A DNA stretch of 39,063 bases. It comes from Pyrodictiaceae archaeon. Lineage in GTDB: Archaea; Thermoproteota; Thermoprotei_A; Sulfolobales; WAQK01. The notes under the pieces are model-generated. The model was not told where the DNA came from. It made no database searches and saw only the letters and a list, made by a program, of their open reading frames with translations. Location of the stretch: the NCBI GenBank assembly GCA_015520265.1, contig WAQK01000024.1:1-39063 (forward strand). Direction: 5' to 3'. Positions 31,002-35,195 of the stretch are shown one piece after another (positions within the stretch are counted from its first letter, which is position 1; each line of letters starts with the position of its first letter). The translations under genes and the position numbers were made by a program.

Positions 31002-31101
31002 GCCGCGGTAGCTCAGCCTGGCAGAGCGCGGGGCTGTGGAGCCCCGCAGGGACTGCGCAGACACCCCGAGGCCCCGGGTTCAAATCCCGGCCGCGGCCCC
31101 A
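31002..31101 (+). tRNA. tRNA-His (anticodon GTG) with one intron, G-1 not encoded
   Basis: The acceptor stem is GCCGCGG/CCGCGGC, the D arm GCTCAGCCTGGCAGAGC, the anticodon stem CGGGG/CCCCG with loop CTGTGGA, and the T arm CCGGG-TTCAAAT-CCCGG. The discriminator is C73, diagnostic for histidine, followed by an encoded CCA. An intron of about 23 nt (31040-31062) sits after base 37. The base before position 1 (31001) is T, so the extra G-1 of tRNA-His is not supplied by the gene. Confidence 0.95.
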
Positions 31102-31122: not shown

Positions 31123-31641
31123 TTGAGGGTTCTTATAGTATTCATGGATGCGGATTCATGGGCCTCTATCCTGGACGATGCCGCCTATATTCTAGCGTCT
31201 GGCCTTTTACTGAGCAATAGTATAAGGCGGGACTCCAGGGTTTGCCTGGTGAGACGGTGGGATAAATATGAATGGCTATGCGTCGAAGGTTCCAGGGTGA
31301 GGAACCTGCGCCCGGATCTCGAGAGCGCGAGAGGCCTTGTACGCGCCTTCCTCAGGGGGCGGGGGAGAGACGCTGCTAGGCTAGGTAGGGGTCTTCCGCC
31401 GCTGCAGGGTAGGGCTTTTGAGGTCAAAGTTGGTCCAAGCGGCCCATCTCCTATCTGTAGTGACCCGTTGTCCGTAGTGTTCAACCATAAGGGCGAGTAT
31501 GGGTCACTTGAGCCCCTATATGTGGCACCACCCCCTAGACTGGCAGCCAGCCTGGTCGCAGCTGTGAACATCTTATTAGACCGGGCTTGTCATGATAGGC
31601 CGGGATGCGCCGGTGGAGGGCCTGCTAGGCAAGGCGGCTGA
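31123..31641 (+). CDS. TrmY-like SPOUT methyltransferase (tRNA pseudouridine-54 N1)
   Basis: The 172-residue protein resembles archaeal TrmY, which methylates pseudouridine 54 to m1-psi. It starts LRVLIVFMDADSW, has AAYILASGLLLSNSIRRDSRVCLV (compare the family's alpha-helix ending in SHGIRRD), LRPDLESARGLVRAFL, and ends with VAAVNILLDRA. The usual VLGDHxGF stretch of the knot is not clear; the place reads VVFNHKGEYGS. It therefore may be a diverged member. The next gene, pus10, makes psi54 and overlaps it by up to 50 bases, which strongly supports the call. The start is taken as TTG 31123, 21 bases after tRNA-His. Confidence 0.6.
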   Translation: MRVLIVFMDADSWASILDDAAYILASGLLLSNSIRRDSRVCLVRRWDKYEWLCVEGSRVRNLRPDLESARGLVRAFLRGRGRDAARLGRGLPPLQGRAFEVKVGPSGPSPICSDPLSVVFNHKGEYGSLEPLYVAPPPRLAASLVAAVNILLDRACHDRPGCAGGGPARQGG

Positions 31642-32899
31642 GATTTTAAGGGAGCAACCGCTGTGCGACCGCTGTCTTGGAAGGATGTTTGCCAGGTTAG
31701 GTGTAGGTCTGGGCAACGATGAGCGGGGCAAGGCCCTGAAGACGCTCCTGGTAATGGAGCTTCACAGAAGAATAAGGTCTGGCGATGTATCCGCCGAGGA
31801 GGAGTTCAAAAGGCTGGCGCCGCGCCTGGGTAGCTACGCTACCCTCCTTTACGAGCAGCTTTTCGGCGAGAAGCCGGGGATGGAGGCCTGCGCCGTGTGC
31901 GGCGGCAGGCTTGGCGAGGTCATCGAGAAGGCGGCGGCCAGAGCCGCGGAGCTTGTTTCCAACTATGGTGCTCAGAGCTTCCTTGTGGGCTGCCGTGTGC
32001 CTGAAAGTGTCGTTGAGGCGGAGGAGAGGATAAAGCTCCGCCACGGCCTCACCTATGCAGAGTCTATAGCGAGTGAGGTTAGACGAGAAGTAGGCAAGAG
32101 GGTTAGGGACCTCACCGGCGTCGAGCCCGATTTCGCGGAGCCTGACATGGTCCTCCTGGTGGACTTCGAGACTGGTTATGTGGATGCACATCCTCTCCCT
32201 CTACTCTTTAAGGGGCGATACTGGAAGCTGGGTAGAAGGATCTCCCAGTCCAAGTGGATCCTGAGGGACAACGTCAAGAAGTACCCCTTCTCCGTAGAGG
32301 AGGCCCTGGAACCAGCCGCCAAGCTTGTCGGAGCCTCCAGAGCAGTACTCCACGCGGCCGGAAGAGAGGACGTGGATGCGAGGATGCTGGGCACGGGGCG
32401 CCCCATGGTGGTTGAACTCAAGTTGCCTCGGAGGCTGGACGTACAGCCGAAACGGCTGGCCGAGGAGATCAATAGTTCCCAGGAGCTGGTGATAGTAGTC
32501 CTCGACGGGCGGGCCAGGAGGCGTGACGTCAGGCTCTACAAGAGCGAGCGGGCCAAGACCAGGAAGGTGTACAGGGCAGTGTTTGTTACAGATGCAGATG
32601 TTAATGACGCCGCTCTCGCAGCGCTGGAGGAGGCCTTCAAGGACGTCAAGGTGAGGCAGCAGACCCCGCGCCGCGTTCTCCATCGACGCCCCGACATCGT
32701 GAGGTACAGGAGCGTGTATGGCGTGAAGGTGAGGCGTCTCGGGCCCGGCATGTTCGAAGCATTGATCAGCGCCGAGGGAGGCCTCTACGTTAAGGAGCTG
32801 ATAAACGGGGATGAGGGTAGGACTGAGCCGAGCTTCTCAAGCGTTCTCGGCACCCAAGCCGAGTGCCTGGAGCTCGACGTGGTCTACGTGGAACTATAG
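31592..32899 (+). CDS. pus10: tRNA pseudouridine synthase Pus10
   Basis: Pus10 makes pseudouridine at positions 54 and 55 of archaeal tRNA. The 435 residues include the N-terminal zinc/THUMP part (Cys25, Cys28, Cys100, Cys103) and the catalytic domain with AGREDVDARMLGTGRPM (about 256-272), where an Asp is the nucleophile. The end has LYVKELINGDEGRTEPS, typical for the family. ATG 31592 overlaps the TrmY-like gene by 50 bases. GTG 31613, with GGGATG upstream, is an alternative start that shortens the overlap to 29. Translation of the pair is probably coupled. Confidence 0.95.
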   Translation: MIGRDAPVEGLLGKAAEILREQPLCDRCLGRMFARLGVGLGNDERGKALKTLLVMELHRRIRSGDVSAEEEFKRLAPRLGSYATLLYEQLFGEKPGMEACAVCGGRLGEVIEKAAARAAELVSNYGAQSFLVGCRVPESVVEAEERIKLRHGLTYAESIASEVRREVGKRVRDLTGVEPDFAEPDMVLLVDFETGYVDAHPLPLLFKGRYWKLGRRISQSKWILRDNVKKYPFSVEEALEPAAKLVGASRAVLHAAGREDVDARMLGTGRPMVVELKLPRRLDVQPKRLAEEINSSQELVIVVLDGRARRRDVRLYKSERAKTRKVYRAVFVTDADVNDAALAALEEAFKDVKVRQQTPRRVLHRRPDIVRYRSVYGVKVRRLGPGMFEALISAEGGLYVKELINGDEGRTEPSFSSVLGTQAECLELDVVYVEL

Positions 32900-32942: not shown

Positions 32943-33254
32943 ATGGTTAAAGCGCCTAGAGGTTTCCGGCACAGGACCAGAAAGCTCCTGAGGAAGAGGG
33001 TGAGAGAGAAGGGAGCCGTGCCGCCACTGAGCCTTATCCTGCACGAGTACAGGCCCGGCGACAAGGTCCACATAAGGATAAACCCCTCGGTTCACAGTGG
33101 CATGCCCCACAGAAGGTATCACGGTAAAACCGGCACGGTCGTCGGTAAGAGGGGTAAGGCTTACCTAGTGGAGGTATACCTGGGCGATAAGAGGAAGCTA
33201 CTGATAGTGCGTCCTGAGCACCTGCGCCCCGCTGGCCAGAAGGCCCAGTCCTAA
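32943..33254 (+). CDS. rpl21e: 50S ribosomal protein L21e
   Basis: The 103-residue basic ribosomal protein begins MVKAPRGFRHRTRKLLRK. It contains GDKVHIRINPSVHSGMPHRRYHGKTGTVVG, split over adjoining strands of its SH3-like barrel, the family signature. The start is ATG 32943. It heads the archaeal cluster L21e - rpo4 - DUF655 - dim1 - methyltransferase, which is conserved in many archaea. Confidence 0.96.
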   Translation: MVKAPRGFRHRTRKLLRKRVREKGAVPPLSLILHEYRPGDKVHIRINPSVHSGMPHRRYHGKTGTVVGKRGKAYLVEVYLGDKRKLLIVRPEHLRPAGQKAQS

Positions 33255-33325
33255 ATATATAGAAATGAATAATTATCCCACACGCTTAAATAATTGGTAA
33301 AGGGAAGCAGTGGAGGTGCAGCTAT

Positions 33326-33664
33326 TTGCCCGAGGTTCTGGAGAAAACTGACCTAACCATACCTGAAGCGCTCGAGATACTTAGAAAGAGGGCTTCGGAG
33401 GGCGAGCTCTCAGAGCTCCAGACTAGGGCTCTCACATATCTCGAAACTTTCGCTAAATGCAGCGCCGACAACGCCAGAAAACTTGTCCAGGAACTCGAGG
33501 AGAGGGGTGTTGAGAGAGAATACGCGATAATGGTTGTCAACATAGCGCCCCAGACAGTGGACGAGCTCCGCACTATCCTGGCTGGTTCGGGAAAAACATA
33601 CACGCCTGAGGAACTCGAGGAGATCGTTGGGCTGGTCGCCAAGTACTGCGGCTCCCAGGAGTGA
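33326..33664 (+). CDS. rpoF: RNA polymerase subunit Rpo4 (F)
   Basis: The 112-residue homologue of eukaryotic Rpb4 forms the stalk of archaeal RNA polymerase with Rpo7. It has the all-helical pattern with ALTYLETFAKCSADNARKLV, then LEERGVEREYAIMVVNIAPQTVDELRTIL (HRDC-like), and ends EELEEIVGLVAKYC. The start is TTG 33326 with GGAGGTG upstream. A TATA element, CTTAAATAAT, is at about 33285-33294. Rpo7 is elsewhere, as usual. Confidence 0.94.
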   Translation: MPEVLEKTDLTIPEALEILRKRASEGELSELQTRALTYLETFAKCSADNARKLVQELEERGVEREYAIMVVNIAPQTVDELRTILAGSGKTYTPEELEEIVGLVAKYCGSQE

Positions 33665-33703
33665 TGTCCCTCTCACCCAGAATGTTCTGACCTGGTGGTA
33701 GGA

Positions 33704-34360
33704 GTGTATCATCGTCCAAGGGAGAGAGGTGGAAGGGAGCCGCATCCGAAGGAGGAGTACGCTTACATTCTGGACTATCTGCCTAGGGGCAACCCTTTAG
33801 ACAGGCATGAGCCGCATAGAAGCAAGCCGGTGGCCCAGGCGCTGGGCGACAGGTTCTTCACGCTTCTCGAACTCCACCCTAGGCCCTTCATGCCGGTCGA
33901 GATAGGTGAGAGAGTCTATATAGGCAGAGGTCTAAGGGATAAAATAGCGCATGTTTTCGGCAGGATAGACTATGACGACTTAACGTCTGTGGCTAAGGGC
34001 AATCTGCCCTCCACGGTTTCAAGGATCATTCAGGAGAAGGAGAGAGTATTCGTAGAGTTCTTCAACAAGGCTGGTGCGGTGACATTGAAGCTCCACGTTC
34101 TCGAGCTTCTGCCTGGCATAGGCAAGAAGACCCTGAAGGTTCTGCTAGACGAGAGGGAGAGGAAGCCCTTCGAGAACTTCGAGGATATAAAGACCAGGGG
34201 CCGCATAACGGACCCTGTGGCCATCCTCACGGAGAGAATAGTGGCGGAGCTCAGGGGCGAGGAGAAATACTACTTGTTCGTACGCCCCCCGCCTCACAGG
34301 CCGGGCATATACTTCGGCTTCCTCGAGAAGCTGTACGAGCAGTTGGGAGGCTTTGACTAG
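33704..34360 (+). CDS. DUF655 RNA/DNA-binding protein
   Basis: The 218-residue protein of the archaeal DUF655 (COG1491) family has EEYAYILDYLPRGNP near its start, an S1/OB-like part with GERVYIGRGLRDKIAHVFGRI, and a helix-hairpin-helix at LHVLELLPGIGKKTLKVLLDE. It is predicted to bind nucleic acid; its role is not established. It is always found with rpo4 and dim1, as here. I prefer GTG 33704 (GGTGG upstream) to GTG 33695, which has no ribosome site. Confidence 0.88.
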   Translation: MYHRPRERGGREPHPKEEYAYILDYLPRGNPLDRHEPHRSKPVAQALGDRFFTLLELHPRPFMPVEIGERVYIGRGLRDKIAHVFGRIDYDDLTSVAKGNLPSTVSRIIQEKERVFVEFFNKAGAVTLKLHVLELLPGIGKKTLKVLLDERERKPFENFEDIKTRGRITDPVAILTERIVAELRGEEKYYLFVRPPPHRPGIYFGFLEKLYEQLGGFD

Positions 34361-35195
34361 TCCCCCACCCCTTGATTCTAGGAGAAGCCTCCTCCACTGG
34401 ACCCTCAATGTTTTGAGGCTACATGGCATTAGGCCTTCCAGGAGGCTGAGCCAGTCCTTCGTGGTTGAGCCTGGCCTTGTCAAGGAGGTTGTGGGCTGGG
34501 TTGAGGCAACCGCCCCGCGAGCGGTAGTGGAGATTGGGGCTGGGCTCGGCACTCTCACGTACCACTTAGCGCTGAAGGCGCCCAGGGTCTACGCGGTAGA
34601 GGTGGATCCCCGGCTGGCCAGAGTGGTTGAAGAGGTCACTCGGGACCTGGGCAACGTGGAGGTGATAGTGGCTGACGCCTTAGAACACCCGATTGGGCTG
34701 GGGGATGCGGCTGTCTCCAACGCGCCCTACCATATAACTGGGCCTTTGATAGCTAGAGTGCTCAGAGAGAACTCATTCAAGAGGGCGGCACTTCTGCTCC
34801 AGGCTGAGGTAGCTGCCAAGATACTGGCATCGCCAGGCAGCCCCGACTATGGCAGGCTAACGGTATTTGTGAACTATTTGGCCAGACCGGTGCCCGGTGG
34901 AGTGTACCATCCTTCTTGCTTTTATCCTAGGCCCAAGGTGTACTCGAGGCTTGTCTACCTGGAGAGGACGCGAAACTATGACGAGCATGCCTGGGCCTTC
35001 GAAGAGCTGGCCCGCTGCCTCTTCAACCAGATTAATAAGATGGCCCGCAAGATAGCTAGAAGGTGCCTGGAGAAGCTTTCAGATATAGGGGTGGAGGTAA
35101 GCCTGGAATGGCTGGGGACAAGGAGGGTACGGGAGCTGGGCCCAGAGGATGTGGAGAAGCTACTAGAATATCTTGTGGCTCGGAGGAGAGACTAA
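34353..35195 (+). CDS. ksgA: rRNA small-subunit dimethyladenosine transferase Dim1/KsgA
   Basis: The enzyme makes the two dimethyladenosines near the 3' end of 16S rRNA. The 280 residues have LSQSFVVEPGLVKEVV, the SAM motif VVEIGAGLGTLT, AVEVDPRLA, and the active-site motif SNAPYHITGPLI, where most bacteria have NLPY. FYPRPKVYSRLV and a C-terminal helical domain follow. The start is TTG 34353, overlapping the DUF655 stop by eight bases. There is no better start nearby. Confidence 0.94.
   Translation: MTSPPPLDSRRSLLHWTLNVLRLHGIRPSRRLSQSFVVEPGLVKEVVGWVEATAPRAVVEIGAGLGTLTYHLALKAPRVYAVEVDPRLARVVEEVTRDLGNVEVIVADALEHPIGLGDAAVSNAPYHITGPLIARVLRENSFKRAALLLQAEVAAKILASPGSPDYGRLTVFVNYLARPVPGGVYHPSCFYPRPKVYSRLVYLERTRNYDEHAWAFEELARCLFNQINKMARKIARRCLEKLSDIGVEVSLEWLGTRRVRELGPEDVEKLLEYLVARRRD

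Follow-up and report, generated by a model that had tools for sequence, protein, structure and literature searches.

TrmY, the tRNA Psi54 N1-methyltransferase (COG1901/DUF358, PF04013, NF002560), was reportedly assigned in Chatterjee 2012. SPOUT methylases are almost all homodimers whose active site is formed on dimerization from both subunits, and each dimer takes up two cofactors but a single RNA (PMC9508554). A dimer of the SPOUT protein NHR with one dead subunit still methylates, with reduced activity (PMC4409310), and the residues that act in trans in other members lie in the C-terminal helix (TrmD and the ribose methylases) or in the first helices (RsmE) (PMC1829167). TrmY is described as a single dimeric enzyme (PMC5372735, PMC7912444), present in "a few Crenarchaeota" (PMC7912444). 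The two genes characterized here, T1 and T2, share with TrmY their descent, their predicted fold and the Pus10 pathway, whereas they are two unlike genes with complementary halves of its conserved residues. Our analysis suggests that, across two large groups of archaea, TrmY has given up its usual symmetry and is built from two different subunits with a single shared active site.

T2 lies in the window (the whole stretch of DNA analyzed, 39,063 nucleotides long); T1 is the fuller TrmY of the same genome (G000:C97), found by PF04013. The features of the T2 locus are as follows:

31002..31098, + strand: tRNA gene with an intron (RF00005, 51.3 bits; ARAGORN output "tRNA-???")
31123..31641, + strand: T2, TrmY-derived paralogue (TTG start, TGA stop, 172 aa)
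31480..31533, + strand: degenerate knot region of T2 (from predicted structure and alignment)
31592..31641, + strand: overlap of the 3' end of T2 with the 5' end of pus10 (50 bases; 29 with the GTG 31613 start)
31592..32899, + strand: pus10, tRNA pseudouridine 54/55 synthase (435 aa; TIGR01213, PF21238, PF22023)

The downstream gene is unambiguously Pus10: its product matches TIGR01213 over its full length with 398 bits (cut-off 200) and PF21238 with 213.7 bits, PF22023 is likewise over its cut-off, and both the THUMP and the catalytic domains are present. The preliminary description of this DNA had reported that a TrmY-like frame and pus10 overlap by up to 50 bases directly behind a tRNA gene, and this arrangement is confirmed, with an overlap of 50 bases from ATG 31592, or of the shorter length listed above from GTG 31613, which is the sole other nearby in-frame start (upstream, the frame is closed by a stop at 31577), and with 24 bases between the end of the tRNA gene and the start of T2. 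Among 35 T2-pus10 junctions in genomes of the same order, 33 overlap when pus10 is taken to begin at its first possible start, and 24 do so even with the last listed one, so that the overlap is beyond chance. The T-loop of the tRNA gene (TTCAAAT) carries U54 and U55, the Pus10 targets; read by eye, the gene is probably a tRNA-His(GUG), with C73, anticodon GTG and an intron of ∼23 nt. A tRNA gene also precedes T2 in a genome of the same family (G010, L004:1378-1475). Where these two genomes have a tRNA, many other loci of the order have an open reading frame of ∼445–457 aa upstream of T2 or pus10, which we take to be srp54. On the 3' side of pus10 the window contains rpl21e, an Rpb4 gene, a DUF655 gene and a KsgA-type rRNA methylase gene (32943-35195).

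The linkage of T2 to Pus10 extends far beyond the genome of the window. In the same order, 37 of 58 T2 matches (37 of 57 genomes) stand immediately upstream of pus10 in the same orientation, 20 do not adjoin it, and one more is in a genome with no Pus10 match; in family f6, T2 is beside pus10 in 0 of 14 cases. Beyond the order, pus10 is adjoined by 29 of 52 T2 loci (21/27 in the rest of the phylum and 8/25 in Asgard archaea). T1 and T2 are themselves neighbors in at least five genomes: in G085, G067 and G051 they lie head to head, in G375 and G376 tail to tail.

Searched alone, T2 has no Pfam match, PF04013 included, and matches the TrmY model NF002560 over residues 23–78 with an E value of 1.2e-4, its 21.6 bits not reaching the cut-off of 183. 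A profile built from 72 T2 members, searched against the PDB, finds AF_1056 (E 1.8e-22) and MJ1640 (E 8.3e-19), and up to E 1 it finds UPF0217/TrmY chains only; at E values up to 1e-3, NF002560 matches 55 and PF04013 33 of the 72 members. The AlphaFold model of T2 (pLDDT 90.6, pTM 0.85) superimposes on AF_1056 with Z 17.1 (2.6 Å over 157 residues) and on MJ1640 with Z 16.7, and its best 28 Foldseek matches are all SPOUT proteins by title or family. T2 is thus TrmY-derived, with a predicted TrmY fold (the SPOUT alpha/beta knot). The preliminary description had also noted that the VLGDHxGF part of the knot is missing, as the alignment bears out: the knot region is without the LGDHxGF and SLG cofactor motifs, the columns of G162, D163 and G166 are gapped in the window protein, and S184 is replaced by Y133 (residue numbers of the conserved columns are, throughout, those of MJ1640). 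In the model, no helix stands between strands 116–120 and 130–134, where the T1 model has helix 145–153. The window T2 has I16 in the R34 column and D18 in the D36 column, and it keeps S31, R35, G56, D65, G90 and D153, corresponding to S49, R53, G76, D85, G117 and D204; in its model, S31 and R35 follow the first helix and D153 lies in the C-terminal helix.

T1 of the same genome adjoins a prolyl-tRNA synthetase gene and scores 68.3 bits with PF04013 (cut-off 25.5), without reaching the NF002560 cut-off. It keeps R28/D30, G138 and an SLGP motif, as well as R47 and D180 (R53 and D204), and has lost S49, G76 and D85; its model matches AF_1056 with Z 23.8 over 175 residues. PF04013 at E values up to 1e-3 matches 47 of 47 T1 proteins, and no match in the 147 genomes of the order reaches the NF002560 cut-off. 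A minimal T1 is seen in family f10 (L231-L236 and L266-L269), in open frames of 152–174 aa from which most of the TrmY middle is lost; in the alignment of four of them (A4, L266-L269), R14/D16 and G97 are kept and are read as R34/D36 and G162. T2 is an ancient paralogue of T1.

To compare the two proteins column by column, 72 T2, 47 T1 and single TrmYs were aligned, and the Asgard proteins (26 T1 and 27 T2) were then added. "Thermoproteota-like" here denotes the lineage of the window, as judged from gene content, and "Asgard" the phylum of the Lokiarchaeia genome G370 (L044). The T2 set (A1) combines the window protein with 71 of the 78 trimmed T2 sequences, leaving out the window's own copy (L003) and L015, L024, L091, L097, L124 and L191, which are duplicates or have unsure starts; the T1 set (A2) leaves out the near-copies and fragments L048, L053, L067, L168, L170, L171, L172 and L176; and the singles (A3) are 10 of 11. 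The residue table further leaves out the f10 T1 (A4), the T1 loci L237-L250 and L282, and any T2 outside A1. The reference consists of 23 TrmYs taken as single, namely 21 from genomes with one match and 2 PDB chains. It should be noted that the Asgard frames were chosen by the motif around R34/D36 (T1) or S49/R53 (T2), which favors those columns; no listed Asgard locus failed the frame motif, and the columns of D85, G117, D204, G162 and S184 are free of this bias.

Of 25 columns kept in at least 20 of the 23 single TrmYs, ten split into two opposite sets. The first is kept by T1 and largely lost by T2: R34 (73/73 T1, 5/99 T2), D36 (73/73, 5/99), L142 (70/73, 11/99), G162 (72/73, 4/99) and S184 (69/73, 9/99). 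The second is kept by T2 and loosened or lost in T1: S49 (97/99 T2, 5/73 T1), R53 (98/99, 36/73), D85 (84/99, 12/73), G117 (96/99, 35/73) and D204 (98/99, 34/73). Single TrmYs keep both sets, as seen with single exceptions in the ten aligned from the phylum sample. The opposition holds in each phylum counted separately, as the Thermoproteota-like plus Asgard counts show for R34 (T1 47/47+26/26; T2 5/72+0/27), D36 (T1 47/47+26/26; T2 4/72+1/27), G162 (T1 47/47+25/26; T2 2/72+2/27) and S184 (T1 46/47+23/26; T2 3/72+6/27) on the one side, and for S49 (T1 1/47+4/26; T2 72/72+25/27), R53 (T1 25/47+11/26; T2 71/72+27/27), D85 (T1 5/47+7/26; T2 58/72+26/27) and D204 (T1 25/47+9/26; T2 71/72+27/27) on the other. 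The remaining conserved columns are mostly loosened in T1, in T2 or in both, with no clear split; G146, kept by 71/73 T1 and 67/99 T2, is not partitioned. Taken over all conserved columns (23 columns), T1 and T2 show no significant anticorrelation (Spearman -0.19, p 0.37), because many of these have been lost from T1 and T2 alike, and the apparent partition is carried by the ∼10 strongly partitioned columns. In the window's own genome it is incomplete, with R47/D180 present in T1 and D18 in the D36 column of T2.

We also asked how the two genes are distributed among genomes. A first pass over 147 genomes of the order found T2 in 57 and T1 in 54. When the nine seemingly T2-only genomes were searched with a profile of the short f10 T1, all four genomes of family f10 among them, which are 99% complete, yielded a T1 (E of 2.1e-35 or lower), and there was no match in the T2-only genomes G069, G093, G122, G132 and G142 of families f6, f8 and f9; among the six f10 genomes without T2, the same profile gave one match, with E 0.045 and five internal stops. 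In the final count, 52 genomes have both genes, 5 have T2 only, 6 have T1 only and 84 have neither (weak T1 matches in G049, G059 and G145, E 4e-4 to 9e-3, and weak T2 matches in G008, G030 and G037, E 3e-3 to 9e-3, are left out), and all 11 discordant genomes are 61–92% complete. Among the 104 genomes that are at least 90% complete, 38 have both, 2 have T2 only, 1 has T1 only and 63 have neither; of the 41 genomes with either gene, 38 thus carry the pair, and the three with one of the pair only are 90–92% complete. All 104 have a Pus10 match, in 25 cases only below the family cut-off; in the 63 genomes with neither T1 nor T2, Pus10 is over the cut-off in 38 and below it in 25 (21 of which are family f11). 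Families f3, f9 and f10 include some members with both genes and others with neither, as if both genes had been lost (or gained) together. In the phylum sample of 250 genomes, T1 is found in 66 of 68 T2 genomes (16 of the 68 being shared with the order sample), and the other two are 77% and 89% complete; T1 occurs without T2 in G310 (74% complete), and in 23 further genomes one gene is matched by both profiles. Family f6, where T2 never adjoins pus10, still has T1 in 12 of its 14 T2 genomes. The presence of T2 thus tracks T1, not Pus10.

Two features of these genomes may be mentioned separately. In family f11, which by the counts used has neither T1 nor T2, the best Pus10 match is below the cut-off and covers approximately positions 2–185 of the 402 in the model, in an open frame of ∼370 aa (e.g., G031:C1:1082076-1082708); a second Pus10 match per genome was counted, and the C-terminal half may be present in diverged form. 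The genome G025 (87% complete, 5% contamination) has two T2 genes, on C99 and C331, which could reflect contamination or a recent duplication.

The T1/T2 pair is also present in Asgard archaea. A TrmY match is found in 197 of the 227 genomes of this phylum, with at least two matches in 136 of the 197 (a match not always being a separate gene). In the tree built from all columns, the T1 of both phyla group together (support 98), as do the T2 of both phyla (79), and with the 20 partitioned columns removed the two groupings receive 97 and 87, respectively. With the same columns removed, the AU test rejects (p-AU 0.008) a topology that holds the Asgard pair together, as a duplication confined to Asgard would require; this is a quick tree, built from 86 of the 195 rows and having several long branches, and the tested group was named after the first tree had been seen. 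Within the scope of that test (p-AU 0.008, 86/195 rows, several long branches), independent duplications in the two phyla are ruled out, and the simplest reading, which the tree favors, is that of one old duplication, probably before the split of the Thermoproteota-like and Asgard lineages. Both residue sets are kept nearly throughout in ten Asgard genomes that gave one TrmY match (L280, L283-L286 and L289-L293); in L280, L285, L286, L289, L290, L291 and L293, pus10 is in the same stretch as the single TrmY.

Taken together, these patterns make it likely, in our view, that T1 and T2 are obligate partners in a heterodimer whose single composite active site makes m1Psi54, T2 being co-expressed with Pus10. 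An ancestral homodimeric TrmY gene would have been duplicated before the two lineages split, and each copy would then have lost the active-site half supplied by the other. T1 would hold the knotted cofactor (SAM) pocket, formed by the GDH and SLG loops, G162 and S184 included, together with R34/D36, and T2 would bring S49/R53, D85, G117 and D204 to this pocket across the dimer interface. The residues kept by T2 fall near the in-trans sites of other SPOUT enzymes, and we therefore infer that T2 completes the T1 site in a physical heterodimer. Pus10 would make Psi54 and Psi55, the T1-T2 pair would then methylate Psi54 to m1Psi54, and the production of T2 from the pus10 operon would couple the synthase and methylase steps. 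A more elaborate arrangement, in which T2 also docks on Pus10 and Psi54 is handed from synthase to methylase within a three-protein complex that includes the obligate heterodimeric TrmY, is proposed tentatively, and we think it somewhat less probable than its opposite.

The preliminary description had left a choice between a diverged TrmY and a new Pus10 partner, and part of each stands, T2 being TrmY-derived, with the predicted TrmY fold, and Pus10-linked; neither option provided for a protein that tracks T1 and complements it. It had also set against its own reading a canonical trmY elsewhere in the genome combined with the absence of a knot fold in this protein; a fuller trmY does exist (G000:C97, PF04013 68.3 bits), but the other half of this objection fails, the TrmY fold being present in the T2 model. 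Because T2 tracks T1 and the two keep complementary residue halves, T2 appears better explained as the second subunit of a heteromeric TrmY, one that binds no cofactor, than by either of the two options.

The co-occurrence of T1 and T2 would look the same if the two merely shared a pathway, without T2 residues completing catalysis. Such a T2 could keep its fold without the cofactor motifs, and T1 of the window's own genome still has R53 and D204. We nonetheless regard this reading as unlikely, since it leaves unexplained the loss of S49 from T1 (kept in 5/73), the loosening of D85, G117 and D204, the retention of these residues in T2 and the recurrence of the pattern in two phyla. It is less likely still that T2 is a new Pus10 partner, an accessory subunit of the synthase with no role in methylation. 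Its place beside pus10 in 37 of 57 genomes of the order and at 29 of 52 loci beyond, often with overlapping frames, is what such a partner would lead one to expect, but 38 genomes of the order with a completeness of 90% or more carry Pus10 above the cut-off and neither T1 nor T2 (25 more have a weaker Pus10 match), and 12 of 14 T2 genomes of family f6 have T1 with none beside pus10. T2 as a Pus10 partner only is thus disfavored, as T2 follows T1 rather than Pus10.

That T2 is a diverged but self-sufficient TrmY homodimer, the first option of the preliminary description, is very improbable. The TrmY fold, the homology to TrmY and the position beside pus10 all accord with it, but among 99 T2 proteins G162 is kept in 4, S184 in 9, R34 in 5 and D36 in 5, the knot helix is absent from the model, and the genome has a fuller TrmY; a plain TrmY is ruled out by the lack of cofactor motifs together with the presence of another TrmY gene. 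A decaying pseudogene or chance open reading frame, which the weak single-sequence matches might bring to mind, is scarcely credible for a protein that keeps S49 in 72/72 and D204 in 71/72 relatives, is retained in two phyla and is modeled with a pLDDT of 90.6.

If the heterodimeric reading of T1 and T2 is true, evolution has separated the cofactor half of TrmY from the other half; the pair would then reveal directly the chain from which each residue acts, and would be a very old and clean example of a duplicated gene whose copies underwent complementary losses. Annotation would gain as well: PF04013 misses many T2, and the NF002560 cut-off is reached by none in the 147 genomes of the order. 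The low detection of T2 (33 of 72 by PF04013) and the unmet NF002560 cut-off may partly explain why TrmY was reported from so few Crenarchaeota.

Among the pairs of unlike subunits that invite comparison, mt-LAF5/mt-LAF6 belong to the TrmH/SpoU side, Trm6/Trm61 have another methylase fold and ADAT2/ADAT3 are a deaminase, neither of the latter two pairs being knotted. The Trypanosoma mt-LAF5/mt-LAF6 heterodimer, which acts in mitoribosome assembly, also consists of two unlike SPOUT subunits; it is part of a eukaryotic mitoribosome assembly intermediate, unlike the putative archaeal tRNA enzyme T1/T2 (PMC12123411). Yeast Ygr283c/Ymr310c (COG2106) have been suggested to form a SPOUT heterodimer; they are of another family, from one organism, and, in the accessible part of that report, unlike T1 and T2, no complementary residue loss is in evidence (PMC1829167). 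A second, complementary TrmY gene was not found described in the accessible portions of the open-licence literature searched. Trm6/Trm61 and ADAT2/ADAT3 are tRNA-modifying pairs of a catalytic and a structural or RNA-binding paralogue that arose after duplication, as T1 and T2 would be, which differ from them in being archaeal rather than eukaryotic (PMC6382703).
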